A DNA stretch of 64,000 bases, from positions 10,082,484-10,146,483 of the forward strand of contig NC_092564.1 in assembly GCF_037975245.1 (NCBI RefSeq). The letters are read 5' to 3'. The notes under the pieces are model-generated. The model was not told the origin of the DNA. It did not search any database and saw only the letters and a program-made list of their open reading frames with translations. Position numbers and translations under genes: made by a program. Shown here in pieces: positions 8,111 through 56,355 of the stretch (positions are counted from its first letter, which is position 1; every line of letters begins with the position of its first letter). Origin of the DNA: Apostichopus japonicus (taxonomy: Eukaryota; Echinodermata; Holothuroidea; Aspidochirotida; Stichopodidae).

Positions 8111-9625
8111 TCAATTGGGAGTTACAGCATTTCCAAGCCAAAAGCATCACACACACACAAGCCATCACCATCGTATAGATTCCTTTTTGCTTTGGCAAGG
8201 AACAAAAAGTTAGGCCTTGCAGTTGTCATATGTTCTGACGATACTGGCAGTTAACTGTCAGTTTACTTGTTATGTATCCCATACATTCATTCTAAGTGAC
8301 AAGGGACTAAAAGAAATGGAGAACGGACTATTATAAATACGACAACAGTTTTTACAGCTATCTATTTCTACCTCAAGATCTTAACCCAATTAAAAAATTG
8401 CAGACAATAGGTTATGGTTTATCATTATGTACAAGTCAGAAAATAGACAATAATGACGATTTTTAATGATAACCCAATTTGATAGAACAAGGAAAACAGA
8501 ATCGGTAACACAAATGTGTTACCATAACATCAAAAAAATTAGCTGACTAATTGATTAAAATCATAAGAGCTTCCATAAGACTGTCATTAAATATGCAAAA
8601 GGAGATCTTAACCTGAGAGGGTCAAATCTTTGATATGAAACATGGGACAAAACGTTTACCTTAATTCTTTAATGGTTTTTGTGATGAACTATGTGATGAA
8701 AATACAGACTGTGCAATACAAAAAAAAAAAAAAATTAAAAAAGAAAAATGGGAAAATTGTTCCCTTAATATGGGTGTATCAATCTACAAAAGTGATTTTA
8801 AGCTCAATTTCTCCATAATCTTTCTTCAACCTTAGCAGTTGAACACAAATTTGAAATGTCACAAAAGCAGGATATTTTGGCCAAGCAATCCATTAAAATG
8901 CATTATGAATGGTGGAATAAATTGACCAGCTAAACAATACTTGTAAAAGGATACAGACCATAGTTAAGTCAATACTTCAGAGGACCAAAGAGTCAACAAA
9001 TAACATAAAAACTAAACTACGTTTTTTTTCTTTTCGAATTCATTAGTGAATTCAATATGCACTGATTCTGAACACAGGAGGATGTGTGATCTATTTCCTT
9101 AAGTGATAATAAGCTATGAAGGTTATCCCTCAAAATATATTCGACATCTCAATAGCATTATGAATAACTGAAACCTTTATTTGTTATAACCACAGAGATT
9201 TTGACAGATTCACAAATGGCAGTATAAACCATTTCATGAGGGACCTAACAGCCGATTTTAATTTTTTTTTTTAAGCAAACATGGCATTTTAATAAATGTC
9301 AAAAACTAAATAGAGGTATTAATATCTCATAAGGGTCTTAACGGTCAGTCTTACTATGTACAATAGTTCATAAAGATAGTGTAACAGCAGCAAATCTTTG
9401 TATGTACTACAAGAAGATATTGGCAGTAATGAAGCAACCTTAAATTTTAAATCTAAGATTGCCTGATCACCTTTAGTACAAGCAGCGATAAGTGTTTTCT
9501 TCTCTTTAATAACCTTAAAAGAATGATTTGCTTGGTACAAACTTTGCGTCTTAAAAAAAAACAAGATAATCACTTTTTTATTCATTGATTCTAAAACATT
9601 ATTGTAGTGAAGCTTGTATCACTCT

Positions 9626-9631
9626 TTTATT
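9626..9631 (-). promoter_or_regulatory. Candidate poly(A) signal for hnRNP gene 1
   Basis: The minus strand reads AATAAA here, about 1.15 kb below the stop codon of hnRNP gene 1 and about 420 bp below the conserved 3' UTR block. It is the first AATAAA I found in this orientation after that block. The assignment is positional inference. Confidence 0.3.
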
Positions 9632-10050
9632 GGTTGATTCCAATCACACATTGAATGCATGAACAGACTTGGCCAAAAATCAAAATTTCTCAATCAGGCA
9701 AAGCCCCACACTCAACATAACATCGTTTTTTAAGATTGAGATGTAAGGGACATAATGTGAGGTGCAAATCATCCAAAGGGTTTGAAAAAACTATCCAAAA
9801 TTAATTCATCCCCAGCTGAGAGATCACATCAAACAAAATCCTAGAAAAGACAAGTATTTGCAAAAACACTTCAAAAAATTTGAGGTTAATCGAATCAATT
9901 CAATAATAAGTGACTAAGAAAGTTAAGCTTCCGTCAACTTGAACAAACTTCCAAGCTAAATGGAACGGACCAAGTTATATCAAGTTCAGAACACCTGTTT
10001 TGAAACTGGACAACAAGTGCTGTATGTTAGAGCACCAGGGTTCTAATTTC

Positions 10051-10404
10051 AATAGCTTAACCTGGTCCAAACAAATTACTGACAAATAAATATGAGCGAT
10101 TGTTCTACTAATTATGACGGTCTCCAAGATAATTTCTATTCTCTTAGCTTCTGTCCATATCCCATTAAAATATTTGTTAGCTGATGATCCTGACTATATA
10201 TCCTGGCTGGCCATCTGAATCTTTACTGATAAACTGTTCTATCCTGTCCCAAACAATCTTCAAAGGCTGCTGACCCTCCTGGCTTTATCCCATGGCTATC
10301 GACGTTCTAGTGGTGCTCTTATTTAGTACAAACTGAATGATCTTAAATGGTAATGGGGGGCAATCCTTCACTGTTGACTATTTACACAACCCCAAAGAAA
10401 CAAT
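10051..10404 (-). other. Conserved 3' UTR exon of hnRNP gene 1
   Basis: On the minus strand a pyrimidine-rich acceptor (ttcatttatcacag) precedes position 10404. It can join the GT donor that lies 4 nt after the stop codon (exon end 10773, then GTAAGT), giving a 368-nt 3' UTR intron. The block 10051-10442, which includes acceptor and exon, is nearly identical to 30290-30685 in the same position of hnRNP gene 2: a handful of substitutions and a few short gaps over about 395 bp. It holds many UAG trinucleotides in transcript sense. The exon may continue below 10051. Exon boundaries are predicted from sequence only. Confidence 0.65.
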
Positions 10405-10776
10405 CTGTGATAAATGAATGAAAGAAATCAGTTCAGATTAATCATAAGTACACAAATACAAACAAAGAGTGATTGAAAACTGTAGATATCATTTAACCAC
10501 AAATACCTCTTTGAGAATGGAAAGAAAATTAACTTGACATATTCAAGTGTCACTGAAAGTTGATATTGATATTCAGTACTTTTGCAGACCTAGACTTTTT
10601 TACAAAGTTCAATTACAAAAAAAAAGGAATCACTTTCAGAATTATTAAGAATTCGGACAGCCTATTACAACAACCTACTACTCAGCAAATAAAAATTCTG
10701 GTGGGCATGATTTTCCTTTAAGCAATATGAACTCTTAAAAGGATAGTGTTTATTGTTTTGTTATTGACTTACCTCT

Positions 10777-13700
10777 TTAGTATGGCCTGTATCGGCCACC
10801 CCTGGTGCCTCTGCCGGCTCCCTGATCGTAACTACCGTAGCTGTCTCCACCATAATCACCGCCTCCGTAGGCACCACCGCCACCACCACCATAGCTGCCA
10901 CTATTGCCATAGCTGCTGCCACCGCCGTAGTTGCCTCCGCCAAAGCCGCTACCCCCTTTCCTGTAGTTATCACCTCCGTAACCACCGCCGTATGAATCAT
11001 CTTGATAATTATCTGCAAGAAGAATCAATCAGAGAATATGCCACTCAGTTTTAAAGAGAAAAAGAGAGACTTAAACACTAGTACCATCTAAGATTCTTCT
11101 GAACTTGAATTCAAAGACACAGCTAATCCTAACATTCCAACATCAGAGAATAAACTTCTCAACTGATTTTTTAATGAAAACGTCAACACTTTTTTGACAG
11201 TTTTGTTAACATTATACAATGCAAATATGTGATGGGTACCAGTCATTTCTGTAAGTGGTTTATTCTCACTTTGGGAATAATGCCTTCATGCCATTTCAAA
11301 TCTCTGAACATTGCCCTTGAGCCCTTTTGGAAAAGGTGAAAAATTGCTGTGGAGCCCTGCTATTCCAAGGCAATTACGAAATCATGCTAACAAGTTGTCT
11401 TGGCCCTCTCAAGCCCTGCTAGATGCAAAGATAGCTATGCTAGATATGGAAACCTAGCTATTTTGTATGCAAGTTTTATATTAGCCCCAAGTGACCTTTG
11501 ACTCCCACCAAAACAATGCATTCTTGTGTACTCATTAAAAAGAACTTGTTGAATGGACCTATCTTGAGATGGTACATGTTACTGCAATACGTTAGATAAT
11601 ACTCATTCGTGCAAACCTCTTCTGCATCCCTCACTTACTCCTGTACACAACGGTGTAACCACTGGTGACTCTTTGGGAATTATTACTTACCAAATCCTCC
11701 TCCACCTCCACCCCAAGCTGATCCTCCACCGTAGTTGTCAAACCGGTTTCCTTGATTGAAACCGCCACCTGAAATCATGGTTAAACAAGAAAACAAAACA
11801 ACATAGCAACACAAGACTTTCTCATGGATGATGTCATCTGGGCAATCCAGCTGAAAACCTCTTCCGTTTCTCGTTTCGTCAATCGTTAATAAACAGAGAA
11901 ACAAATATTTCTACAAAAAAGAGAGATTTTATGTACAGAGAAGTTTGAGAGCATAAAATACATTCAAATGTATCAGGTTTTGAAGTATCAATCAACAAGT
12001 AGGTTTTAATAGCCTAAAAGCTTTTGAAGAGCATTTTCCCAGATGACATAACAGACCTCTTGGGAGTAGCTGAAGGTTTGTGTCCAAAATAAGTTACATT
12101 CAATCAGCCATATCTTGAATTAAGGAGCAAAAAAAAATTGAGATGGGGTTTTCAACTAGCAGTGTCACATTAATTGTCACCAGAAATATCCTTTGATGGG
12201 ATATTCCGGTCACATCTAATGTGACCCTTCTATGGACTAGAAAAATATTCCACAAAGTTAGCTGAAAAACCGGTATTACGACGTCTTTTCCCCAACTCAA
12301 AATACGGTGACTGTGATATAGTGATTGTTACTTATTTTGAAACCTGAGTAATGAATGCCTACCTCGGCCACCTCGGCCGCCACCTCGGCCACCACCTCTT
12401 CCTTCGAATCCACCTCGTCCACCACCTCGTCCACCACCTCCTGAAATACAGTAAGGAGTTTTACATTTTTTAACTCAAGTCTGGATATCACAAGCAGCAT
12501 ATCACAACGGATAGCAAAGAATATTCACTGTGTATGAGAGTTATTACACATATTAATTTGGTGGCTAGCACATCAACCTTTAAGGGTAGGAGAACACGTA
12601 GGTACTTAGCAATTTCACTTCATGGAGACCATACTGTTTTCTGACAACAATTTGAACTTTTGAAGCCCTTTCAGAAACAGAGTCTTCAACGATGACATGG
12701 CTTAAATTATAGTGATGTACACCATGTCAGTAACCTGCTTGTTTGTAAACATATGATGAATCATGAGATTTGGTAACTTGGGTTCTATGTAGTATTCTAT
12801 CTTCATTGCATGCTGGACAATTGGTCAAGAGTCTGTCCCTATCCTTAAGTCAACACTTTATTATAAAGCAGAGAAAACTTACCTTCCATTTGTTCCTTTG
12901 GTGCTGCTTTCTTCACTTCCACATTCCTTCCACTCATTGTAAGTCCTTGAATAACTGAAAGTCAAGTTAAAAGACTTACTTGAGATGATAGCATTAAAAC
13001 TGTACAAGTCACTTCACCAATAGGTACTGTGTGTATATTGATGATGACAAATAAAAGCTTCCAACCACAGATTTGTGCAATCTGTGTTAAGAGCCTATGT
13101 GAGCTAAACTGATGACACCAAGCAAATTGCAGTTCTGATTGGTGGCTTAAATGTACAAAGATAATTTCTAAAGGCATAAAAAAGAGCTTTTTGTCGTGGC
13201 AGTGAATAGGAAATAAAACATGGACGAAACATCCTCAGCTCCTTCATGTTGAAAAAGAACAATGCAAAACCAATGTCATCTGGTAACAAAACTGGGATTT
13301 AAGAATTGTTAGAACCAAGTCGATAAACACCATCAGTTCGCAGCTTTAAATGAATGGAACAGATCTGCAAGCCAATTCCTTGCCACAGTTGTATGTGAAC
13401 ATTCAACAGTAACTTTGAACAAGATGTATTTATTGAGATATCATTTTTACAAGGTTTTCACAGTTTGACCTGTTGATCACATAATACCTTTGACCTGCAG
13501 AGAAAGTGAAAGGGGGCGTCTTGTACTCCAAATTAAGTGGATCATAACCTACGTATGAAGTTCATCCACTACAAACTTCCTGAATTACGATGCTTACACA
13601 TCAAGGTGCCAAATGCTCATGCCATCACCATTGATTCTTTTTGCCCAGGAATAAAAAATCCAGCAACCGGGAAAATTTCATAATTGGGTAACAACAGTGC

Positions 13701-16245
13701 AGGACAAACACAACTGGAGAAATGTTATTCTTTTATTTCATTGGTTAATTCACTGTTGAATGTATTATCTACACCTAAGTCATATTTAAAGTATCTCACC
13801 CATCAATACCAAATGTTGTTGGTTCATAGTAACAAGCACATGCAAATGACTAACTGCTTTCTCATATGAAATGGTCACAAAAGGTTTTACTCACTGACTA
13901 ACTTGTCCACAAAATCTTCATGTTCGAAGTCCAAGAAGCCAAACCCACGCAACTTTGTGGGATCATCCTTTCTCTTCAGCAGATCAATCTTTGTAGGAAC
14001 GATAGGTGCACACCACTGGCGAATGAGGTCTTCTGCTTCTTCTTCACTAATATTTGGAATACCTCCAACAAATATTTTCTTGACCTTCAAATGTCCAGTT
14101 CCAGACTGATCCTGAAATATTGGAGAGAAAGAAAGAGGCTCATCAACATTTTTGCAGAGGGCACTGTCATATCGGTCCTAATGTACTGTTTAATAATCTC
14201 TGATTTATAGAAGTACATTCGCTTGTAAAAATTTGAAAATATAGGCCATAAGATCTCTCCTTCAATAATTACGAACTAAGCAGTAAGTACACTTCAACTT
14301 ATGTTACCATTATGATCTCAGTCAAAGGGGGAAACTTGTCAAGATTCACAGAACTAGATAGGACCATGATAAATCTTTCAAACAGGCATACTTACATCTC
14401 GTGGAATGGCCCTCTTGATCTCAACTTGTTTTTCCTTAATCAACAAGCCACCACTTTCCCTTCGTGTTTCCAGCACGCTGTCTGTGGCTTCAACTGCATC
14501 AAAAGTGACAAATCCAAATCCACGAGAATTTTTTGTAACAGCGTCCCTGATCACGACACAATCAACGATGGAACCGTAGCTTGATAACACTTCCTTGATA
14601 TCCTCCTCTGATGATTTACGATCCAATCCGCCAATGAACAATTTTCGGAGAGATTCCAAATTGTTCTGCAGGAAGTAATTGAAAATGAAAACAAATATAA
14701 CTTTGATAATGATGATTAATTTCTCCATAATCAAAGGTTGTTCCTGTAACTATTCGTGAAAGTCTGTAGAGAAAGACTAATTCTTGATTTGAATATGATA
14801 TCATATATCAGTTTTAGGAAATTCATGCTTATTTGTGAAGTTAGGTTTCAGATTTTGCTCAATTTTCAACCACCTGTACAAAATTAAAACTTTGTAACGT
14901 CAATGGGTATGTATGTGAGAGTGTGCTTAATCCACACGCAATAGCCATAGACAATGGCTATGAATACCACTTTCATCTACCCTGGGCTTGTACGAGAATC
15001 TTGCACAATAGAGCTTCCAGATGTGAAAATCATGGGGAAAAATATTGTTGCAATAATGTTGGGAACGTTATGAAAATCCAGAGAGAAAAAATGCCGTATT
15101 GGCTCCAGTTAAGATATGCTACAGAGTGTTAGGATAAGTTTTGTCCCCCTGCAAGTTGGATATGCATCGGAAATGAAAAACATGCCAACGACGGATCGAA
15201 TGATACAGTAACGCTGTTGTTGGAAATTCAGAGGTGTAAATCTCGGAGGTAGAAGAGAAATCCTGGTATGCCTGTTTACAGGAGAGAATGGGCAATTTGC
15301 CATTGAAAATGGCACACACACACTAAAATACAACAAAGTGGCTATTCTTACGACTGTTCGTAAGAATAAATTCCGACTACGCATGCGCAGTTGCTATATT
15401 TATGACAGGAGAACTATTTTTTACGACCAGGAGTAACAATAATTTCCGGTTAGGGTTAGTGTTAGGATTGGGGTTTAGGGTTAGGGTTACCCCTACAACA
15501 TGGGCAGTTGCTTTATTTACTTTACTGCGCTTGAATTCGCCTTTGTCGTAAGAATAGTTTATAAATAATTGTTACGAATTGTCGTAAGAATAGCCACGGC
15601 CAAAATACAAACACATCCAGATTTTTGGAAAATTGTATTTTATTGAGGAAAAATCTTACTGTCGTATTAACTTCTAAAAATTTTACAAAATGCGATAAAA
15701 TAGTACTGGTTGGCAGCTCTGAGTTAGGCTAAATAATTACCAACGCTACTTATATTAAATATCCATCGATCCTCTTCCGAACCTAATCTATCCTGAGAAT
15801 CTACAGTCTCTATCCTGCTGGAGCCAAATTCTATAATTCTCCATCCTATTCAATAATTTCAATGTGCCCTTTCCCTTTTGTCTACAAATATTTATACTAG
15901 CTAGCCTAAGGCCTATATCTTATTTAAACGGGAACACAAGATACAATTATTTCAAAACTGAGGAAATTTCATGGATTATGCTACCTTACACTACGTTTAG
16001 CATGTAGTATTATTGGTAGCCTAGCCTTTAATGGTGGTATTAAACACTATGCCCAGCATTAGTAACTAGGCTAGTACGCTATCGCGCACACTACTGCCAT
16101 AGTCATACTCATGAACAAAGACGTAGGCCTAGGCCAATAGCCTAACGTGAGGCCTTCCCTATGCGGTCTGATAATGGCGGTTGACATAAAAAAAAAATTA
16201 GAACTGCATTTAATTTCTTACGCCTGAATCGCCGTTATGATCCAT
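10777..16245 (-). CDS. hnRNP A/B-type RNA-binding protein, gene 1 (324 aa, 7 coding exons)
   Basis: Predicted coding exons (minus strand): 16245-16222, 14665-14396, 14111-13895, 12954-12883, 12440-12363, 11768-11691 and 11012-10777. All have GT donors and AG acceptors, intron phases are 0,0,1,1,1,1, and the sum is 975 nt ending in TAA. RRM1 spans about residues 15-95 with RNP2 KLFIGG (16-21) and RNP1 RGFGFVTF (56-63). RRM2 spans about 108-188 with KIFVGG (110-115) and RGFGFLDF (153-160), followed by VEVKKAAPKEQM. From about 195 the chain is an RGG box, then Gly/Tyr/Ser-rich, ending RGGRYRPY, like the C-terminal KPY end of hnRNP D/AB and a possible PY-type import signal. The family binds nascent RNA and controls splicing, export and stability. 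It lies head-to-tail with the paralog at 31-39 kb. The subtype (A2/B1, AB or D) cannot be fixed from sequence alone. Confidence 0.93.
13440..13640. repeat. Dispersed 'tgacctttgacc' repeat copy in an intron of hnRNP gene 1
   Basis: Carries 'caaggttttcacagtttgacctgttg', 'acctttgacctgcag', 'cttgtactccaaattaagtggatc' and 'tatgaagttcatcca' in the same order as other copies of the family. The DR1-like core is degraded here (ATACCTTTGACCT). Confidence 0.65.
15334..15601. mobile_element. Short TIR element with telomere-like core, in intron 1 of hnRNP gene 1
   Basis: The 17-bp inverted repeat GTGGCTATTCTTACGAC lies near both ends. The flanks are identical: AAAATACAA at 15325-15333 and 15602-15610, an 8-9 bp target duplication. 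The 268-bp element holds TTAGGG-like repeats at 15451-15492 and has no coding frame. It fits a hAT-like MITE; the superfamily is inferred from the duplication length only. Confidence 0.72.
15451..15492. repeat. Interstitial telomere-like (TTAGGG)n tract
   Basis: Several GGTTAG/TTAGGG units in imperfect tandem, ending ggtttagggttagggttacc. They sit inside the TIR element at 15334-15601, so they travel with that element and do not mark a chromosome end. Confidence 0.75.
16222..16245 (-). CDS. First coding exon of hnRNP gene 1 (inferred)
   Basis: The minus strand reads ATG followed by codons for MDHNGDSG, then a GTAAGA donor in phase 0, exactly the phase needed by the acceptor at 14665. The paralog has an equivalent short Asn/Asp-rich first exon (39298-39272). 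It supplies the start codon that RRM1's exon lacks. Support is the donor, the phase and the parallel with gene 2; there is no transcript evidence. Confidence 0.65.
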
Positions 16246-22788: not shown

Positions 22789-23068
22789 TTTAAAGGGTGT
22801 GAAGACTCCCGCAAAAAGAAACGTCTAATGCCGGTAATCTGACCTAGTTTCGAATGAGGTGTAACAGAAGTGTTAGACACCACCATCGAAAATACACACA
22901 CAGCTTGCTACCGTCTGTAATTAGACACTAGTGTTCAGTCAGTACATACAGCTGCAGTCAATACCCACAGCACAGTGTATAAACGATACATCAATGGACA
23001 TGTCAGGTCCATCTAAAGATAACAAGGTATCACGTTTCATTACTGTCTGCATTTTGTAGGGACACGAA
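22789..23068. repeat. Dispersed repeat, copy A (inverted copy at 34428-34706)
   Basis: About 270 bp that matches the reverse complement of 34428-34706 with scattered substitutions. It starts 'gggtgtgaagactc' and ends near 'gcattttgtagggacac'. A B-box-like GTTTCGAAT occurs inside, so a SINE is possible, but no A box is clear and I cannot name the family. Confidence 0.75.
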
Positions 23069-23419
23069 CAAAACGTCACGGTTTAGGGCGATTCTTCAAT
23101 GCCTTTAAGTGCAGGCTACTGTCTCATTGCAGCATCCTAGGGCAGCTTCCCTTATCATGCATGTTATCTTCCGGGTGACCTCCATCTGGTGTAGCAAGGA
23201 AAAAATATATATTTAAGATAAAGGAGTTCTTGTGAAACACCTGGAAAGTGCTCCAAGTCATACTGATAGGAATTCCTCCTTTTTGTGTTAAAAGAAGTAA
23301 AACTTTGTGATAATTTTGGGCCACATGCTACCAGACTCAGAAAAACAACGACTGAAATATTTGAGCTCCTTTAACAAACATGTCACATTTTTATGAGTTG
23401 ACCTAAGCAGTAAGCATAC

Positions 23420-28700: not shown

Positions 28701-30285
28701 CACCTACACAGGCCGTTTTGCAGTAGATAAGCAATTCTGTTAACAGTTTCTTTTTTCTACTTTCACAAGGAATTTCTACGGTTGCAGTATTTAGCATTTC
28801 AGAGGGGTTCTTTACAGCACGATAGCTGTGCTATGGAACCATCACAAATTATGAGACTAACAATTAACCCAAGGCCGATCAGGAACAAGCCATCTTTGTA
28901 ACAAAATTCAAAGAAAGAAATGTGGGACTTTTACAGGACAACGAGTAACATTCATCTATTCTATTTCGACAATTGGAAGGCAATCGAAAAACAAAAAATT
29001 TTGTAAGCAAGAATATTATTGTCTATGAAAACGATGTATAAGAATGTGGACTGTGCAATACTACATGCATAAATCTCACAAGTTTCCCCAATTAAATTCT
29101 TTTGTAATGTTCAAAAAAACTTATTTGTTAAAAGGGATGAAACGCTTTCCATTTGTTCTGACTTTGAAGTCAGAACAGACAGTTATAGCCACATAAACAG
29201 GAAACTTTATAGAAAAATTGCTATTATTTAGTAGTAATAGTTGCGCTTAAAAAAAAAAAAAACCTTTGACACGTAACACATGATATGACAAAACTTATAT
29301 ATGGCTCTTTGTTTGAGCTGAGTTCAAGTGTATGAAAATAATTGCAGCCTGGACAAAAATTACAGATATGTGGGTTTCAACCGCCAAATAAATGCTAATG
29401 ATTAACAGAGACAAATATGCCATGAACATGATATTTCCCAGTAAAACCAAGGAACTGTCTATCTGTATCAATGCCAAGAGCATGCTACCTCTATTCTATT
29501 ACCATCAATCATTGTCATTATGACAAACTACAATGGAATATCTCCCAGAGAATTAGCTCCAGGAAAGCAAATGTTACACCTTAATTAGCATACTACAAAA
29601 GGACTGCTGTCTGCTACAGACTTGTAAAACAGCTGAAAACAAACAAACTATATTGCAAAGTAATCACCAAGCTCGGTCAACAAATGTATACAATTTGGTT
29701 TGAGACATGGCAGCTTTGTAAGAAGAGACATCTCAAGTACTTTAATATTACAACCCACTGAATATGAGTATCACAGAGTATTCAGTAACAGCCTGTGTTG
29801 TCTGGTGGTGGGAGTCAATTAACTCTGTTATTTTGGCAGTGGCTATGACGTATTGGTAATTCCTCCCAATCTGAGAAAACAACCGTCTTTTAATTATTAT
29901 GTACAAATCAAAAATCCCCCCCCCCCCCCCAAAAAAAAAAATTGGGCAAAGAGCACAGAATTTTGGGGGCTGGCTGGAACGTGAGTTGAACCAGTCCGAA
30001 GTTGGTTGTTCACATACTGATGTAATATATATATAATCATTCATGTTAATACACATATTAACACATGGAAAAAGAAAAATAGAATAAAGCAACAAAATTA
30101 ACAAAATGTATCACCAAAACATTTTAAAACTTTGGGTGGTCATTTTTTCCTTAATTAAAGTCACAAAAGTTGCAAGGAAATTGTCACATTGACGTGAGTA
30201 AATGAAGACGTTCAAATTACATCTACATACGAGGACCTGCCTTGAAACAAAAGGGGAGGTGACTGTTGAAAAACCAGATTCCTCA
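25781..30285. other. Intergenic region between the hnRNP genes
   Basis: No gene is supported. I see C-, G- and A-runs (26580, 27448, 29255, 29917), a TTGACC-repeat tail (25790-25930), and an imperfect CAGGGAG palindrome at 28186-28213. The longest minus frames (27526-27952) overlap each other and have no splice support or recognisable domain. Confidence 0.5.
28186..28213. mobile_element. Degenerate ultrashort palindromic insertion, 28 bp
   Basis: The sequence runs CAGGGAGCTG to CAGCTCGCTG, an imperfect palindrome with the same termini as the perfect ones at 6973 and 58957. It is flanked by GTTGTAC and GTTGTGC (6 of 7 match), consistent with an older insertion with a 7-bp target duplication. 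Confidence 0.5.
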
Positions 30286-30289
30286 CTTT

Positions 30290-30647
30290 AATAGCTTACC
30301 TGGTCCAAACAACTTACTGACAAATAAATATGAGCGATTGTTCTACTAATTATGACGGTCTCCAAGATAATTTCTATTCTCTTAGCTTCTGTCCATATCC
30401 CATTAAAATATTTGTTAGCTGACGATCCTGACTATATATCCTGGCTGGCCATCTGATCTGACTCTTTACTGATAAACTGTTCTATCCTGTCCCAAACAAT
30501 CTTCAAAGGCTGCTGACCCTCCTGGCTTTATCCCATGGCTATCGACGTTCTAGTGGTGCTCTTATTTAGTACAAACTGAATGATCTTAAATGGTAATGGG
30601 GGGCAATCCTTCACTGTTGACTATTTACACAACCCCAAAGAAACAAT
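30290..30647 (-). other. Conserved 3' UTR exon of hnRNP gene 2
   Basis: The acceptor (ttcatttatcacag) precedes position 30647. It pairs with the donor 4 nt after the stop of hnRNP gene 2 (exon end 31469, then GTAAGT), giving an 821-nt 3' UTR intron. The block 30290-30685 is about 98% identical to 10051-10442 below gene 1. A minus-strand ATTAAA at 30292-30287 may be the poly(A) signal. Exon calls are predicted from sequence. Confidence 0.65.
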
Positions 30648-31472
30648 CTGTGATAAATGAATGAAAGAAATCAGTTCAGATTAATGAAAAGACGAAAAAT
30701 ATACAACAGACTGAACATGTTAAGGAGAAAACAACCCAAGATATATAAACTTAACATTGACCATATTGTAAGATACCTAACAAGCTCTTACCGAAGACCC
30801 CCTATCATACTTCTGGACCCCTCCTGCTCCACCATCACCCCTGACAGTTATCTAACTGTACTATGGTATCATAATACTGAATGTTGTAGAGTTGCCTACT
30901 TTCCAAACATGATGTTTCACACTGCCTGTTCCCTTGTATATTATGCTGACTGCACCACTGGAAATCTTTTGTTAAGGGATCCCCTGATCATTATGTCAGG
31001 TGTAGCCTGAACATGAACTGTAGCACAAGTGAATGTTATGTTGTGCTCTCATGAATTAGTGTTGCCCTCTCCTCTGAATATCTTTTTTTATGTTACTTGT
31101 TACATTTTTTTTCATCTTTTTTCCCCCAATATTACCTGATCTCCTGAATGTACATCTTTTATATTACCTGCTCCCTCCCTCTAAATGACTATTACTATTT
31201 TTTTTTTATGCTAACTATACAAAAATCGAATTAACATCATTCTTTGCAATCATCCTTGTTAATTCAGTCACTTCAGCACAAACTTGCACTTCACTGGTTG
31301 AAGTAGTCGTTGGACTGTACAATATTTGAAGGTAGCGGTATACAATATATAAATGTTATCAAATGAGAGATGGTGATACACTGGCTTTGCTAATGATAAC
31401 ACAGTACCAACCGTCTCTTTTTTCACAAAGCATTTCAGTCTTTTGAAAATGATTTGCTAGTGACTTACCTTG

Positions 31473-34400
31473 CTAGTATGGCTTGTATCTGCCACCACGG
31501 TAACCCCTGCCACCTCCCTGTTCGTAGCCGAAACCGCCATCGCCACCATAATCACCGCCTCCGTAACTGCTATATCCGCCACCACCATAGCCACCACCGC
31601 CTCCTCGTCTGTAACTATCACCTCCATAACCGCCACCATATCCATCATCTTGATAATTATCTGTAACAGTACCAGCAAACTCACACTGATTCCATAATAT
31701 TATGTCCTTATCATTAGATTACATTTACTGTAAAAATTGTTCCAACCTTTAACATTCAGATATGACAAAAACTGTCATAGACACAAATCATGTTCAGCAC
31801 CTTTGCCCTCTGCTGACCTTCACCCTCTCAAAGCTCAAACCGATACTGATCTTGAACACATTCAATTAGAAGCACATGATAATTACCTATATAGTTAAGT
31901 TTGTTATTTACAGATCTTGAATTCACATAGAACCACATGATAATTACCCTATTTAGTTAAGTTTTGTGTTTACAGATCTTGACTCATTCACATAGAAGCA
32001 CATGATAATTACCTATATAGTTAAGTTTTGTGTTTACAGATCTTGACTCATTCAATTAGAAACCACATGATAATTACCTATAGTTAGTTTTGTGTTTACA
32101 GATCTTCTACTCATTCACACAGAAGCACATGATAAGCTTAGTTTTGTGTCTGCAAATGATTGCATCAGATGGTTATTGCTAGACACCAATCCAGTGAAAG
32201 AAAGGATATTAGCTTGTCCTCTGGGTCTAAAACAATAACCATCCAGTTCAAGGATATGGTTTTAGGCACAGAATTAATTTTAATATGATTTTTGACCCTT
32301 GAGAGATAATCATCAGTTCCTGGTTGTACTTCTATATCACTTTTAAATGACCCTTTAAACATACGAGGTTCATCAACTAAAGTGACTGGACTATCCAGTC
32401 TAATACACAGACCTTTAGGTCGGTTCTTCAGATCCAACAACAATAAATTCCAGTGGAAAACATAAGAATTTATAGACATCCAATGTTGACAGTATATTAC
32501 AAATTAGTCAAGGACAAACATTGGTGCTGACTGTCATCTAAGGATGCTTTCTTGATTCCATGAGGTTGAAAAGGACATGTTTATGTTTGCATTGTTAGAA
32601 TCTATAAAACAAAAAGGATTGACATTAATGCCTGCAATGATTTTCATCATTTTAAACATGAAGGGGGGATGTTCCAGGGACTTAGCATATTCTGTCTAAA
32701 GTCATCCATTAATAATAAAAATACTCCTCTGTGAATGATTTCTCTTCCTTACCATATCCTCCTCCTCCTCCACCTCCATAACCTCCTCCACCTCCATAAT
32801 AGCCAGATCCTCCTCCTTGACCACCATAGCTGTCATACCCTCCTCCTTGATTGTAGCCACCACCACCTACAAATATCAATTAAAAGGTTTCCAACTTTAT
32901 CAATCGACAAACACAAGATTGACATCAAAAATACCTTTCTTTCTTTTTGAGATATGTTTACACATTTTATTAATTTAAACTATGCTGACCAATCATAGAC
33001 TTTCTGACCTAAATATGACAATAATAACACATTACAACTGCTATTCTTCAGTTTTCATAGTTTGACATCTGCATGACATGTAAGATTGCACAAAATATAT
33101 GAGGCTTCTAGGATTTGGTACATGATCATTTTATCCTCAACTTTTTGAAATACCCTGTGAACAAGCTTGGTATCACACACATTGGTATCACACACATTGG
33201 TATCACACACATTGGTATCACACACATTCCAGCACACTTTTACAATCTCACATATCTGCTAAGGTACCCTGACTTCTACCAGGGCTTTCATTTATTTGGG
33301 TCATTTGACACTTTGGAAGGGTAAAGAATGCTTACCATGTCGACCTCTCCCCATTCCTCCATCATAGCCACCTCTGCCGCGACCACGACCACGACCGCCT
33401 CGACCACCGGATCCTATAAAATAGGTTTAAAAAATGGTGAATGACAGAAAATATTGATCAGCGAATGAAAACTTTCTGCTTTAATGACTTATAACAGCCG
33501 AATGAAGCATACATGCCAATGTCAACGGCTATACCTTAACATATATAAACTAGAGCAATAAAACTATGCAGAATCTCAATACCGTGCAGAGTGAATAGGG
33601 CTGAAACATGTTATATGACAAAAATGCTGGAAACTTCACATTTAAGGCAAATATAAAATTGTCACAGCAGTTTGTAATTTGTGAAGAACGTTTTTTCTTG
33701 CTTGCATTTTTTCAGCAGTAAAGCGAACGATGCATGAACAGCCAAGGCTGTTGGATATCATGTACCACCAGAGACATTCAATACATTAGTCCGTTGGGCA
33801 GTCGACCCTAACACCTTCCTCCCGGCTCGTCATCTGTTATCAAGCCAAACATTACCCACCCATTTGATCCTTTGGTGCTGCTTTCTTCACTTCCACTTTC
33901 TTTCCGTTCATAAAGAGTCCTTGCAGAACTGCAACCAAAAGAATCGAAAGACTGTGGTTAGACAACAGCAAATGAAAGTGGAATCAATTTAGATAAGGTA
34001 CTGGAAATGCTGCAGCAGAATCCAAAATCAGCAAGGCTGCATCAAGATCAACTAACGGAGATTATCTTTGTAAACCAGCAGTGCCTGTTGTGTTTCAATG
34101 TGGAGCACAAGAGCATCCAGGCTGCATTTAGGCTGCAGCCGAGTAAGGGGCTTACTTTTGACGTGGTGCCTAAACAATCTGACCTGCAGTCTGTCTGATC
34201 TGTAAATCTTGTTCCTTCATCCTCAAGAAATTAATTTTCTCCTCGAAACTTATTTTATGAGGTGGTTACACAGACAAACAGCTGTTACGTTTTCAAATGC
34301 CCTCGTCATATTATAGAGGATTAACTTAAAATTTTGACACGATTAATGGCATTGAAGACTCGCCCCAAACCCGCGTGCGGCCATCTGAAAAAGTTAACTT

Positions 34401-39298: not shown

Positions 39299-39990
39299 TG
39301 TTAAGTGTCTCAGAATTTTGTTTGATGTTGCTGTGCGTTAAATGGTGATCTTGCTACACAGCACATATCACGATAATAGCAAATCATTCGACCTTTGATT
39401 CAATGTGTTGTATTTAATTGGACATAAATTGAGTCGTGTGTAGTTGTAGCCTAACCAGGTACGCCAGTGAATACAAAACGTGCGTCATTGTGACATGTCA
39501 GTTTTGAGGCATGCGCAGGCGAACCGGTACTGCACAAAAGATAATCACCATGGGAGGCTGAGTCGGGATGTATGTAGATAGTGACACGATATCATGGAGT
39601 AAACTGACCATTCTTGAAGTGAGGGCCAAAAGTAGTGTGGGCTTCTCGTTGTGTGTTTATGAGAAAGTGTCAAGATAAATAAGGCCGATTGATTTCAAAC
39701 CGGTGTGTGTACGGGGCATATAGTGTCTTCCCGCTCAAAGGTCAAATAAAAGACAAACAGCATTTTGACCGTTACGCATGTATACCGAAATGATAAAGTT
39801 TACCAAACCCTCTAAACATGTAGAATATCGGACTCTGTATGTCTACAAAATGACAAATATCTAGTGATCAAAAAAGGCCAGTGTCAAGGTTATGGAATTT
39901 GTGCGTTTTGCGTCTAACAGCCGACGGACTTCCAAAATTAAGGTGCAGTACCGGAAGAATTTTGGTGCTCAAGTATCTCAACTACACACG
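39299..39990. other. Upstream region of hnRNP gene 2
   Basis: Should contain the promoter and any 5' UTR of the minus-strand gene. I see no TATA box at a convincing distance and no CpG-rich core beyond scattered CG dinucleotides at 39490-39530. No other gene is visible. Confidence 0.35.
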
Positions 39991-39992
39991 GC

Positions 39993-40490
39993 TATGGCAA
40001 GCCATGTGGGACAAACACTGCATAATATATCCGCGTATTAATTCGAATATATACGCGTATTAATTCGAATATATATGTGTTGTAGCCTACATGTGTAAAG
40101 TTTCGCTTTTTGAAGCGATCTCGCGAGCCCGCCAAAACATTTATCCTTGGTATATGTACACAGCAAGAGCGGAAATGTATTTTTTCGTGTATATTCTAAT
40201 TAATCCGTGCATATATTGGATTTAATCCCCATATATATTTTATTTAATACGTGTATATATTCGAATTAATACGTGTATATATTCGAATTAATACGTGTAT
40301 ATATTCGAATTAATACGTGTATATATTCGAATTAATACGTGTATATATTCGAATTAATACGCGGATATATTTAAGCCATATGATTGGCTAATAATATATA
40401 GGCGTATATATTCCAATTAATACGCGTATAAATTCCAATTAATACGCGGATATATTATTCAGTGTTTTTTTTTCCCACATGGCTTGCCAT
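39993..40490. mobile_element. AT-rich TIR element, copy A
   Basis: It begins TATGGCAAGCCATGTGGGAC and ends with the inverted form ('cccacatggcttgccat'). The inner ends repeat 'cgcgtattaattcgaatata'. The flanking ACACGGC (39986-39992 and 40491-40497) is a 7-bp direct repeat. The central part has 'gaagcgatctcgcgagcccg' in common with an inverted copy at 43329-43766. No coding frame is present. Confidence 0.82.
40250..40375. repeat. 22-bp tandem repeat x 5-6
   Basis: Head-to-tail copies of 'ATTCGAATTAATACGTGTAT' plus AT inside the TIR element at 39993-40490. ATTCGAAT is itself palindromic. Confidence 0.92.
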
Positions 40491-40539: not shown

Positions 40540-41180
40540 CAAGGGCGGCGGAAGCACTTTTAATCTGGGGGGGGGGGGGCACCGACATCAAAGGGCACTT
40601 TGCAGAAATTCGATTTGACTGATGCAGCCTTATATTTAGTACCCTTTATAACTCTTATTGTATTATCTTATTTGCGTATACACATCACTCCATCAACGCC
40701 CCCCCCCCCCCCCCTTCAAGGAAAATATGCATACTGGCACTGCAATATCGATGTGCAAATTGGGAAACAAGGAACAAGTTTTCTTTTGAGACAAAATGAG
40801 GTGGAATCATGCTAGTTGCTAATGTAGGAATCATCCGAATTAGAGTTTATAACAAATTTTTTCCATTCGAAATAGCTTTGAGTTTGACCCACAGAAATTC
40901 ATTAACAGCCAGGGGCGTAGCCAGGATTTGCAAAGTTGTATATACGACTATCTGAGCGGAGCACCACCATCGGTTGGCGCGGAGCGTACAAGAAAAGTTT
41001 TGGTTTTACAAACCCCTCAGATGACTGGAAACGGCCCTTCCCGAGTGTTCATTCTGGTTCCCTGGCCTCTTGCTAACTTGAGACACCTCAATTTTTATGT
41101 AGAAAAAGGGCACATTTTTAACCTGAGGAAAAGTGGGGGCACGTGCCCCCTGTGCCCCCCCCCCGGTTCCGCCGCCCTTG
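40540..41180. mobile_element. hAT-like MITE, copy 1 (641 bp)
   Basis: It starts CAAGGGCGGCGGAA and ends with the exact inverse, TTCCGCCGCCCTTG. A perfect 8-bp duplication CCTCCATG flanks it (40532-40539 and 41181-41188). A second copy lies at 55707-56355 in the same orientation with a different duplicated site. The interior has a G-run, a C-run and a sequence 'aggggcgtagccaggatttg' that resembles the end of another hAT-like family. Non-coding. Confidence 0.92.
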
Positions 41181-47109: not shown

Positions 47110-49209
47110 TCATTCCGCAAGGAAACCGTCATTGTCTACAACTCCATTCTCCTTCCCATTCATTTCGATCGTCTTCGTCGAGGACGAGTGTTCTGGTGAC
47201 GGTACTATTTTACCGTTTCGAATTGGTCGCATAATTTGTTTTAATAACATCATGGTGATACAGACCAACAACGAAAAGATTCCAGTCAACATGACCATTA
47301 GGGCGATTAAGTCTACCTTAAAGTCCAATTCTTGAACCAAGTAGCTCACAATGACTAACAATGTGTACATAATGAGACAAAGGAAGATATAGACGATCTC
47401 CATAGCTGCACTTATCGGTCTGTCACTCTCGTTTGATACTCGACGTTTTATGAAGGCTTCTATCTTTAAGAAAAGCCAAAGCCAAAACCAGGTCCATACT
47501 ACCGCCAAATACTCAATCGATGGGATACGAACCAATTCGTTTAAGCGGATCCAATGGCGTCCTTCACTGTCCACAAAGTAGAAACCATACAGGCCGATGC
47601 ATATGATTATGTAGACCAGGAATGGTAATGGATTAGCCCACCACGGTAGTTTCTTCCAAAAAGTGAGACCAAATAACTGCGTCATAACAAGAAGCCACAT
47701 AAAGCCGAAAAAGAACATCGCCCAGAGATCGCTACTAGGTCCGCCAGTCTGTACCGCCACAATAGTAGCGTGAATGGTTACCCAGGACTCCAGGAGGAGT
47801 CTCCAGTATCTATTTAGGTGGATTTTTGTAAACATCAGACTGCCTTGCAGCATCAGTAACCAAGTGTGGATAAATCCGAAAAGATGTCCCCATGTGTTTT
47901 CCATTGGATGATACCAAAAGGTGTATATCGCTCCCCAAGCGAAAGCGTAACCGTGGTACTTCCGCATGAGATTGATCGGACCGAGGTCGAGTCGCAGAGC
48001 TCTGCTGACCTTGCTCTTGTGTTGAGACGAGGGCCAGCCAAAGAAAAGTCCCCTATCTCGATACTCAAGGAGGAGAACAAATACGAGAAGCATTATGACT
48101 GAACTTTGTGAGCTAGCTTCTGAGACGTCTTGGGCAGTTGCGTCATATGTCCAATGCGTCTGAGCGAGATGAACGGCATGGAACGCCATATTTCCAATAA
48201 GAGGTATCCACTGGTACTTGGTCATTGTGTTGCTGTATTTAAGACCACTGTCGGGGTTCCAGGCCCTCAATCTCTGTGCGATGTAAATGGTTGCCCACAT
48301 AAACAGTTGATGAGATGCATAGCAAAACCATACGATACCACGGGATAATGCGTTGGCCTCGGCCGGGGGAAGCTGCCAATAGTACCATCTGCTCGATGCC
48401 GTCGCATCGCAACGACCTGGTACGCCTACTTCAATGACCGTCGGCTCTGGCAGAAAACGTGCGGAAGAGGTTTCGCTGTCGTTGTGCGTCCATCCAGATT
48501 TTGCGTCCCAGTTTCGTAGTTCACCAAACCCCATCATGGCTGCCAACAATGCTAAGATGAAACCGATACCAATCGACCAAGCAAATACATCTTGTGGTAT
48601 ACCAACAAAGGTGGCCTGTTAAGAAAAAAGGTGGGGGGAAGGGATGTTTTATAAGCAGCATGTGAAGAAATCATATTAATTAGGTCATAACTATAATATA
48701 ATAAATAAAAATATATAAAATATTGTGTGGACTGAAGACATGTTGTATAGCTATGGAGTCCGTTAAGTATGATCATGAACATACTTACTACAAATGTTCA
48801 TTCAAACAGAATATGTAAATTACAAATTGAATCTTGATAACTCTCAACTTATCTAATTTTATACAGGTAACAATGATATCTTCCTTTAGGTTAGTGCAGC
48901 TTCATATGTTTACGTGAATGTCGTTCTTGGTTTTGCGGAGTGGGATAACGCTACAAAATTCCATCAATGTACCCCGGTTGGCGTTTATGCCCTCTAGTAG
49001 GATTTTGGCCGACTTAACCCATTCAGATTCAGGTACCCCAGTTTTTCTATAGCCGATAATTTCAACACCTTATTGATCTGAAATTTGAAGTTGTGTATAG
49101 AACCTCCTTCCTTCTACCCTCAACCTCGCAATGCAGCAGAGCTTCTTACCACTTTATCCTTCTTTTTCTCACTTGTCTTTTCATCCATTCTTACGTCAGT
49201 ATTATGATT
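47110..49209 (-). CDS. Histidine-rich polytopic membrane protein, family not recognised (about 522 aa)
   Basis: A large exon 48615-47110 (502 codons with stop) has a good acceptor (cttttttcttaacag) directly before GCC. The preceding exon 49209-49150 ends AAAGTG then GTAAGA, phase 0. Its ATG at 49188 gives MDEKTSEKKKDKV; a start further upstream (51795) is likely. Numbered for 522 aa, about 12 hydrophobic helices are visible: one near 30-50, a soluble segment with WDAKSGW and a lone Cys (51-105), helices from about 113 to 338, then 351-368, 388-408, 424-447 and 454-478, and a polar C-tail. Ten histidines cluster around helices 2-7 (about 123, 167, 170, 175, 242, 257, 265, 271, 287, 303), e.g. 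FHAVHLAQTHW and YHPMENTWGH. This suggests metal or heme binding, but that is inference. Trp is unusually frequent. The almost intronless coding sequence could reflect retroposition or transfer. Confidence 0.88.
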
Positions 49210-55706: not shown

Positions 55707-56355
55707 CAAGGGCGGCGGAAGCACTTTTAATCTGGGGGGGGGGGGGCACCGACATCAAAGGGCACTTTGCAGAAATTCGATTGGACTGATGCAGCCTGAT
55801 ATTTAGTACCCTTTATAACTCTTATTGTATTATCTTATTTGCGTATACACATCAATCCATCAACGCCCCCCCCCCCCCCTCAAAGAAAAATGCATACTAG
55901 ACTGCAATATCCAATGTGCAAATTGGGAAACAAGGAACAAGTTTTCTTTTGAGACAAAATAAGGTGAAATCATGCCAGTTGCTAATGAAGGAATCTTCCG
56001 AATTAGAGTTTATTTCTTGTTAATATCTTAAAAAAATTTTCCATTCCAAATAGCTTTGAGTTTGACCAACAGAAATTCATTAAAAGTCAGGGGCGTAGCC
56101 AGGATTTGCAAAGTTGTGTGCACGACTATCTGAGCGGAGCGCCACCATCGGTTGGCGCGGGGCGTACAAGAAAATTTTTGGTTTTACAAACCCCTCAGAT
56201 GGCCGGAAACGGCCCTTCACGAGTGGTCATTCTGGTTCCCTGGCCTCTTGCTAACTTGAGACACCTCAATTTTTATGTAGAAAAGGGGCATATTTTTAAC
56301 CTGAGGAAAAGTGGGGGGCACGTGCCCCTGTGCCCCCCCGGTTCCGCCGCCCTTG
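55707..56355. mobile_element. hAT-like MITE, copy 2 (649 bp)
   Basis: Same termini as copy 1 (CAAGGGCGGCGGAA and inverse) and the same internal order. A different perfect 8-bp duplication, TTCGTAGT, lies at 55699-55706 and 56356-56363. It differs from copy 1 by scattered substitutions, small indels and a short insert ('cttgttaatatcttaa'). Both copies keep a 90-100 codon plus frame near the right half, but it reads through repeat sequence. Confidence 0.92.

Follow-up and report, generated by a model that had tools for sequence, protein, structure and literature searches.

The window, that is, the whole 64-kb stretch of Apostichopus japonicus DNA analysed here, bears on its minus strand two tandem genes, designated gene A and gene B, which lie about 20 kb apart on the same strand and encode hnRNP A-type proteins, each with two RRMs and a Gly-rich tail. 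Both products were recognized as hnRNP-type RNA-binding proteins by a Pfam RRM_1 match to RRM1 and by their best PDB matches, hnRNP A1 for gene A (4.6e-35) and hnRNP A2/B1 for gene B (8.7e-38); RRM2 was matched by Pfam below the cut-off only in gene A and gave no match in gene B. Each gene model comprises six exons (14665-10777 for gene A, 35725-31473 for gene B) joined in one reading frame; the first coding exon of gene A was not found, and its model starts at the RRM1 exon. A tblastn search detected no further hnRNP copies in the 64-kb window besides genes A and B. The coordinates of all the features are collected in Table 1.

The coding parts of the two genes have diverged strongly, just as the sequence-only reading of this DNA had stated: 217 of the 296 aligned residues are identical, pS is 0.51, dS 0.86 and dN 0.19 over 296 codons, 46 of 108 fourfold sites are changed, and no exact match in the coding alignment exceeds 29 nt. 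Within RRM1 (gene A residues 48-70), 20 consecutive degenerate codons show zero synonymous changes (permutation P 0.005 with all codons, 0.003 with the RRM part alone), which hints, judging from the codon comparison, at a second converted or constrained patch. In the remaining coding exons, including the last one, the identity is never comparable to that of the block described below, which lies in the 3′UTR.

Self-BLAST of the window matched 10034-10448 to 30273-30691 over 420 columns with 95.95% identity, thus confirming that a near-identical block is present in two diverged hnRNP paralogues. The block consists of a complete 3′UTR exon, 37 nt of the preceding intron and about 9 nt that follow the exon. 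It is built like an internal exon, because a splice donor stands at its end. In both genes, an exon flanked by an acceptor and a donor is therefore found in the sequence after the stop codon; both signals are good in gene B, and in gene A the acceptor is good and the donor weak. The acceptor lies inside the block, as had been noticed previously (first exon bases 10404 and 30647), and what had been overlooked is the donor at the block end, its difference between the copies, and the prediction on nonsense-mediated decay (NMD) that the layout entails.

Within the exon, the two copies differ by one 5-nt indel and, according to how the gaps are placed, two or three substitutions; a further 1-nt indel sits in the donor. 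From the end of the exon to 38 nt upstream of it, 378 of 386 columns are identical, with unbroken matches of 223 and 109 nt. Immediately ahead of the exon, all 37 intron positions agree, whereas at the six coding acceptors only 12-16 of 37 do so in ungapped comparison (18-22 with gaps); conservation is thus not a feature of the ordinary acceptors in this gene pair. The earlier description of the introns as unrelated is borne out by the 3′UTR introns, which are alike only at their ends: 44 nt at 95% on the acceptor side and a weak 19-nt match on the donor side. Among the seven donors compared, that of the last coding exon has the highest match (16 of the 20 nt following the exon), and the donor of the shared exon itself matches at only 7 of 20 positions because of the 1-nt indel.

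Table 1. Features of the two tandem hnRNP A-type genes and of their shared 3′UTR exon (window positions; a slash marks an exon/intron border)
Feature	Position	Strand	Basis or remark
Gene A, upstream coding exons (five found)	14665-14396, 14111-13895, 12954-12883, 12440-12363, 11768-11691	-	joined reading frame
Gene A, last coding exon to stop codon (Gly-rich tail)	10777..11012	-	joined reading frame
Gene A 3′UTR intron, 368 nt, begins 4 nt past stop	10405..10772	-	TAA AGAG/GTAAGT
Gene A pre-exon intron, 37 nt (branch-site and pyrimidine-tract region, CAG)	10405..10441	-	identical to gene B
Gene A conserved 3′UTR exon, 343 nt	10062..10404	-	delimited by AG (acceptor) and GT (donor); nearly the same in gene B
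Gene A donor region, CAG/GTTAAG, weak	10053..10061	-	score -0.09
Gene A candidate AATAAA poly(A) signals, two (9631, 9582)	9577..9631	-	motif scan
Gene B, five upstream coding exons	35725-35453, 34989-34773, 33928-33860, 33413-33336, 32866-32753	-	ATG opens the first
Gene B, last coding exon to stop codon (Gly-rich tail)	31473..31660	-	joined reading frame
Gene B 3′UTR intron, 821 nt, begins 4 nt past stop	30648..31468	-	TAG CAAG/GTAAGT
Gene B pre-exon intron, 37 nt	30648..30684	-	identical to gene A
Gene B conserved 3′UTR exon, 348 nt	30300..30647	-	acceptor/donor boundaries; comparison with gene A
Gene B donor region, CAG/GTAAGC, strong	30291..30299	-	score 7.18
Gene B ATTAAA (candidate poly(A) signal), starting 8 nt into the putative intron after the donor	30287..30292	-	motif scan
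RRM1 run without synonymous change (approximate)	14524-14456 (A), 35581-35513 (B)	-	codon comparison

The divergence of the exon amounts to about 0.7% of dS (about 1% if the third substitution is counted), and two or fewer differences in 343 sites have a probability of ~10^-102 at the synonymous rate and ~10^-24 at the nonsynonymous rate. Protein coding was considered and rejected: in the six frames of both copies the longest stop-to-stop stretch has 44 codons, and the 5-nt indel breaks any frame.

Selection explains why the identity does not extend past the exon and its splice signals, among them a pyrimidine tract of the kind that the other acceptors lose, and gene conversion explains the extreme identity in tandem genes and the abrupt edges. 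Either of them alone is possible, but conversion depends on the exons having stayed similar through selection or else through very frequent conversion events. We consider it rather unlikely, though deserving serious attention, that the block merely reflects recent gene conversion and that the exon is otherwise an ordinary 3′UTR devoid of any special function at the nucleotide level. Since the flanking introns no longer align and leave the exon as the longest homology, it is the likeliest site for conversion, and a converted tract would stop where homology stops, in line with the abrupt drop of identity at both block edges. The tandem arrangement on one strand at a distance of some 20 kb and the second low-divergence patch in RRM1 (20 codons, P 0.005/0.003) also speak for conversion, and conversion could by itself yield the observed identity. 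Moreover, there is a precedent for a UTR exon behaving in this way while coding regions diverge: according to Winter and Ponting (2005, PMC1274310), a 5′UTR motif of the BEX/WEX/GASP genes has been kept alike by gene conversion in several species. As in our pair, a non-coding UTR exon is common to genes with diverged coding regions; unlike here, it is a 5′UTR exon of unrelated genes, with multi-species proof and no splicing role described there. Conversion needs prior similarity, however, and a non-functional UTR at a dS of 0.86 would lack it; some force must therefore have preserved the likeness of exon and splice signals on which conversion could act. In addition, the tract must span the acceptor region and the donor exactly to the edges, and the odd composition and poor folding of the exon (see below) are left unexplained.

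The donor at the end of the shared exon is the site where the two copies part. Scored with consensus frequencies, as were the acceptors, the weak donor of gene A falls below, and the strong donor of gene B within, the range of the twelve other donors of both genes (1.27 to 8.61). The gene A form GTTAAG arises through one inserted base relative to gene B. A second, weaker donor-like site stands 18 nt upstream, reading TCA/GTAAGT in gene B (from 30317, score 1.60) and GTAATT in gene A. Both donor-like sites thus differ between the genes, so that two of the few differences weaken the donor in gene A or strengthen it in gene B, which is a post hoc remark on their placement.

In gene B, the two donor-like sites and an ATTAAA fall within about 30 nt (30287-30317, minus strand), and the exon end is possibly a place where splicing or polyadenylation is chosen. 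The ATTAAA beside the donor is present in gene B only and absent in gene A. Poly(A) motifs occur by chance about 0.94 times per kb on the minus strand, so that the AATAAA and ATTAAA sites serve as leads only. Downstream of the donors, the acceptor scan gave two sites above threshold in gene A and one in gene B, which is weak evidence, and no conserved downstream 3′UTR exon was detected, the best match between the downstream regions being 25 nt at 84% (E 0.025).

These observations bear on the reading of the exon as a normal terminal exon with a role in mRNA stability, localisation or poly(A) choice and not in NMD, where the donor-like end would be unused or would merely suppress early polyadenylation against the adjacent ATTAAA of gene B. 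The weak gene A donor followed by AATAAA at 9631 and 9582 fits such a terminal exon, as does gene B with its ATTAAA 8 nt past the donor and, by the motif scan, no AATAAA from the donor down to 27000. There is also the example of TDP-43, whose autoregulation works through an intron in the 3′UTR and the choice of poly(A) site, NMD not being the dominant step (PMC3950720). Our locus resembles that system inasmuch as a 3′UTR intron and poly(A) choice sense the level of the own protein there; it differs in that another protein is involved and that nuclear retention and decay, not NMD, dominate in the TDP-43 case. Nevertheless, the conservation stops at the donor and not at a poly(A) site, and some 0.9 poly(A) motifs per kb are expected by chance on this strand; we regard the terminal-exon reading as improbable.

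The block had been described as rich in UAG, the type of core bound by hnRNP A proteins. This was not upheld: exon A contains 8 UAG vs. 9.3 in dinucleotide and 7.4 in mononucleotide shuffles, and UAGG is absent (0 vs. 2.4 in dinucleotide shuffles), so neither motif is enriched as would be expected of an hnRNP A1 binding platform. At least 8 UAG per 343 nt are reached by 8% of the sliding windows across the whole window; the content is therefore mildly high regionally and lies within what the exon's own composition gives. What survives of the claim concerns the broader hnRNP A1 core, YAGG for RRM1 and YAGN for RRM2 (PMC5503513). YAG is moderately enriched over dinucleotide shuffles, with 24 occurrences in A vs. 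18.1 (P 0.014) and 25 in B vs. 19.5 (P 0.028); these modest P values are uncorrected, 13 and 3 motifs having been tried. The excess is carried by CAG (16 vs. 8.8 in A, uncorrected P 0.004), to which the CAG of the acceptor and that of the donor themselves contribute, as they do to the YAG count, and YAGG in A is at expectation (4 vs. 4.7). Sliding windows contain 8.9 YAG on average, and 24 are reached in 8 of 2548; six of these eight overlap the two blocks, one lies in a tandem repeat at about 38.1 kb, and one is the non-repeat region 15758-16100, which equals the exon in YAG density and so weakens the argument from YAG. This last stretch belongs to a second YAG-rich region with many UAG (15658-16150, minus strand) upstream of gene A that shows no tandem structure in self-comparison and could be a regulatory intron part of this gene.

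The exon folds more weakly than its shuffled versions (z +2.9 in A and +2.6 in B, 100 shuffles each; +1.5 for the antisense strand), and both values exceed those of all 60 random windows (highest 2.28, 40 shuffles per window). For the whole 392-nt block of A the z value is +3.3. The YAG triplets are somewhat more often unpaired than the average position (0.53 vs. 0.45), so that the YAG enrichment, with the uncorrected P values given above, is found in a single-stranded context of a poorly folding exon. The suggestion that the block, read on one strand or the other, gives rise to a structured or small RNA draws on its high conservation. It is contradicted by the positive whole-exon z values on both strands and by the best 90-nt window of copy A (z -0.9 sense, -2.0 antisense); Rfam gave no match, either for the whole window at the gathering threshold or for 10000-10480 at E up to 1, no tRNA was detected in the 64-kb window, and no strong or miRNA-like hairpin was found in the block. 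We therefore rejected a structured RNA, a miRNA and a tRNA, and consider this reading very improbable. The sequence-only interpretation is accordingly supported in part, its regulatory and conversion options being retained.

The window bears several repeat families, which could point to a mobile or dispersed repeat, or to an artefact of assembly, as the source of the block. The likelihood of this seems to us minimal, because the block occurs only twice in the 64-kb window, at equivalent positions and in the same orientation within paralogous genes, and is cut exactly at splice signals. A dispersed repeat, in particular the high-copy one that would have undermined the sequence-only reading, was thus rejected within the window; furthermore, the sequences surrounding the two copies differ, so that these do not represent one locus assembled twice. 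Exact-pattern scans of viral contigs (two patterns) and prokaryote genomes (two) yielded nothing, and in a protein search of viral contigs 23 stretches matched a pattern and none was confirmed; these sets are not expected to contain animal DNA and are therefore uninformative on conservation.

As to the repeats proper, a dispersed element of about 650 bp, likely a mobile element, is present at 40540-41180 and 55707-56355 (91% identity), with shorter pieces elsewhere, including 1327-1718. An inverted, foldback-like repeat with many short internal copies lies at 39988-40371 / 43771-43382 (399 columns at 89%). Another inverted pair, of a ~300-bp repeat at 90%, occupies 22790-23079 and 34701-34405, the second copy lying in gene B, within the intron that follows the RRM2 exon. 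Finally, an open stretch of 502 codons (47110-48618, minus strand) is hydrophobic, has no Pfam match and probably encodes a membrane protein.

With these alternatives weighed, we give roughly even chances to the reading of the block as a regulated non-coding 3′UTR exon that is coupled to NMD and read by hnRNP A proteins in both tandem genes; exon use, donor use, binding and decay are inferred. By the rule given in PMC7764535, an exon junction elicits NMD when it lies more than 50-55 nt downstream of the stop codon. With only 4 nt between it and the stop, the first of the 3′UTR junctions would not count for NMD. If the donor of the shared exon is used, the distance from the stop codon to the junction is 347 nt in gene A and 352 nt in gene B, well beyond this limit. 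We suppose that an abundant hnRNP A protein would bind the exon and shift splicing there: with the donor used, the exon junction about 350 nt past the stop would direct the mRNA to NMD, and with the donor unused the exon would be terminal and the mRNA stable. As both proteins are of the hnRNP A type and both mRNAs share the element, each of the two genes would be subject to its own product and to that of its neighbour. The near-identity would then reflect selection at the nucleotide level on the shared element, with conversion between the tandem genes probably renewing it.

The idea that this is a splicing switch read by hnRNP A proteins and shared by both genes comes from this layout and from two precedents. 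In HNRNPA2B1, as reported by McGlincy et al. (2010, PMC3091714), a small 3′UTR intron near the stop is not relevant to NMD, and a further 3′UTR splice is NMD-sensitive and raised by hnRNP A2. Genes A and B are likewise hnRNP A-type genes with a small 3′UTR intron too near the stop for NMD, and their layout is similar to that of HNRNPA2B1 with its further NMD-triggering splicing, its very high 3′UTR conservation and the feedback by its own protein; unlike HNRNPA2B1, here two tandem genes share a near-identical exon, and the second splice is predicted from the sequence. The second precedent is hnRNP D and DL, which regulate both themselves and one another through cassette exons in their 3′UTRs (Kemmerer et al. 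2018, as summarized in the review PMC7764535). Much as at our locus, these are hnRNP paralogues in which an exon lies past the stop codon; its inclusion creates a distal junction, and self- and cross-control operate there; they belong, however, to another hnRNP family, and in the available sources near-identical paralogue exons were not seen reported for D/DL.

Several points weigh against the regulatory reading. The NMD branch of gene A may be dead because of its weak donor, the exon shows no UAG enrichment and contains no UAGG, the best hnRNP A1 motif, and the stretches scanned yielded no clear exon further downstream. As for related human genes, PMC8068773 describes the cross-control of HNRNPA1/A2 as acting via the 3′UTR, sensitive to cycloheximide and without splicing change, and the HNRNPA1 intron 10 autoregulation as independent of its own 3′UTR and of NMD. 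In PMC7310861, the HNRNPD isoform with the proximal 3′UTR intron was unresponsive to the knockdown of UPF1 or EIF4A3 in one cell line. More speculatively, and in our estimate doubtful, a single "sensor" exon might be kept common to both diverged genes by selection and repeated conversion, so that one protein pool would be read identically by both; the changes tolerated would fall largely at the donor, with gene B closing the NMD loop and gene A acting without decay or with a weaker one.

Our survey of the literature, which took in the autoregulation of hnRNP genes in echinoderms, tandem genes of the hnRNP A type and the conversion of UTRs and largely covered sources other than subscription journals, brought up neither this locus nor any case of hnRNP paralogues with near-identical 3′UTR exons. 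On the reading favoured here, the exon belongs to a known kind, the 3′UTR regulatory exons of hnRNP genes, and what is new is that it is shared almost unchanged by diverged tandem paralogues. A parallel in another family is the homologous poison cassette exon of SRSF4/SRSF6 (Lareau and Brenner 2015, PMC4379411): there too a homologous unproductive exon is retained in two paralogues, but it has diverged in one of them, while here it is almost identical. According to the same paper, replacement after duplication is usual for the unproductive exons of splicing-factor genes, and the present pair stands in contrast to this. Paralogues with a coding dS of 0.86 and a non-coding exon that is ~99% identical offer a natural test of selection vs. 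conversion, and the same gene pair tests whether shared feedback elements couple the dosage of duplicated RNA-binding proteins.
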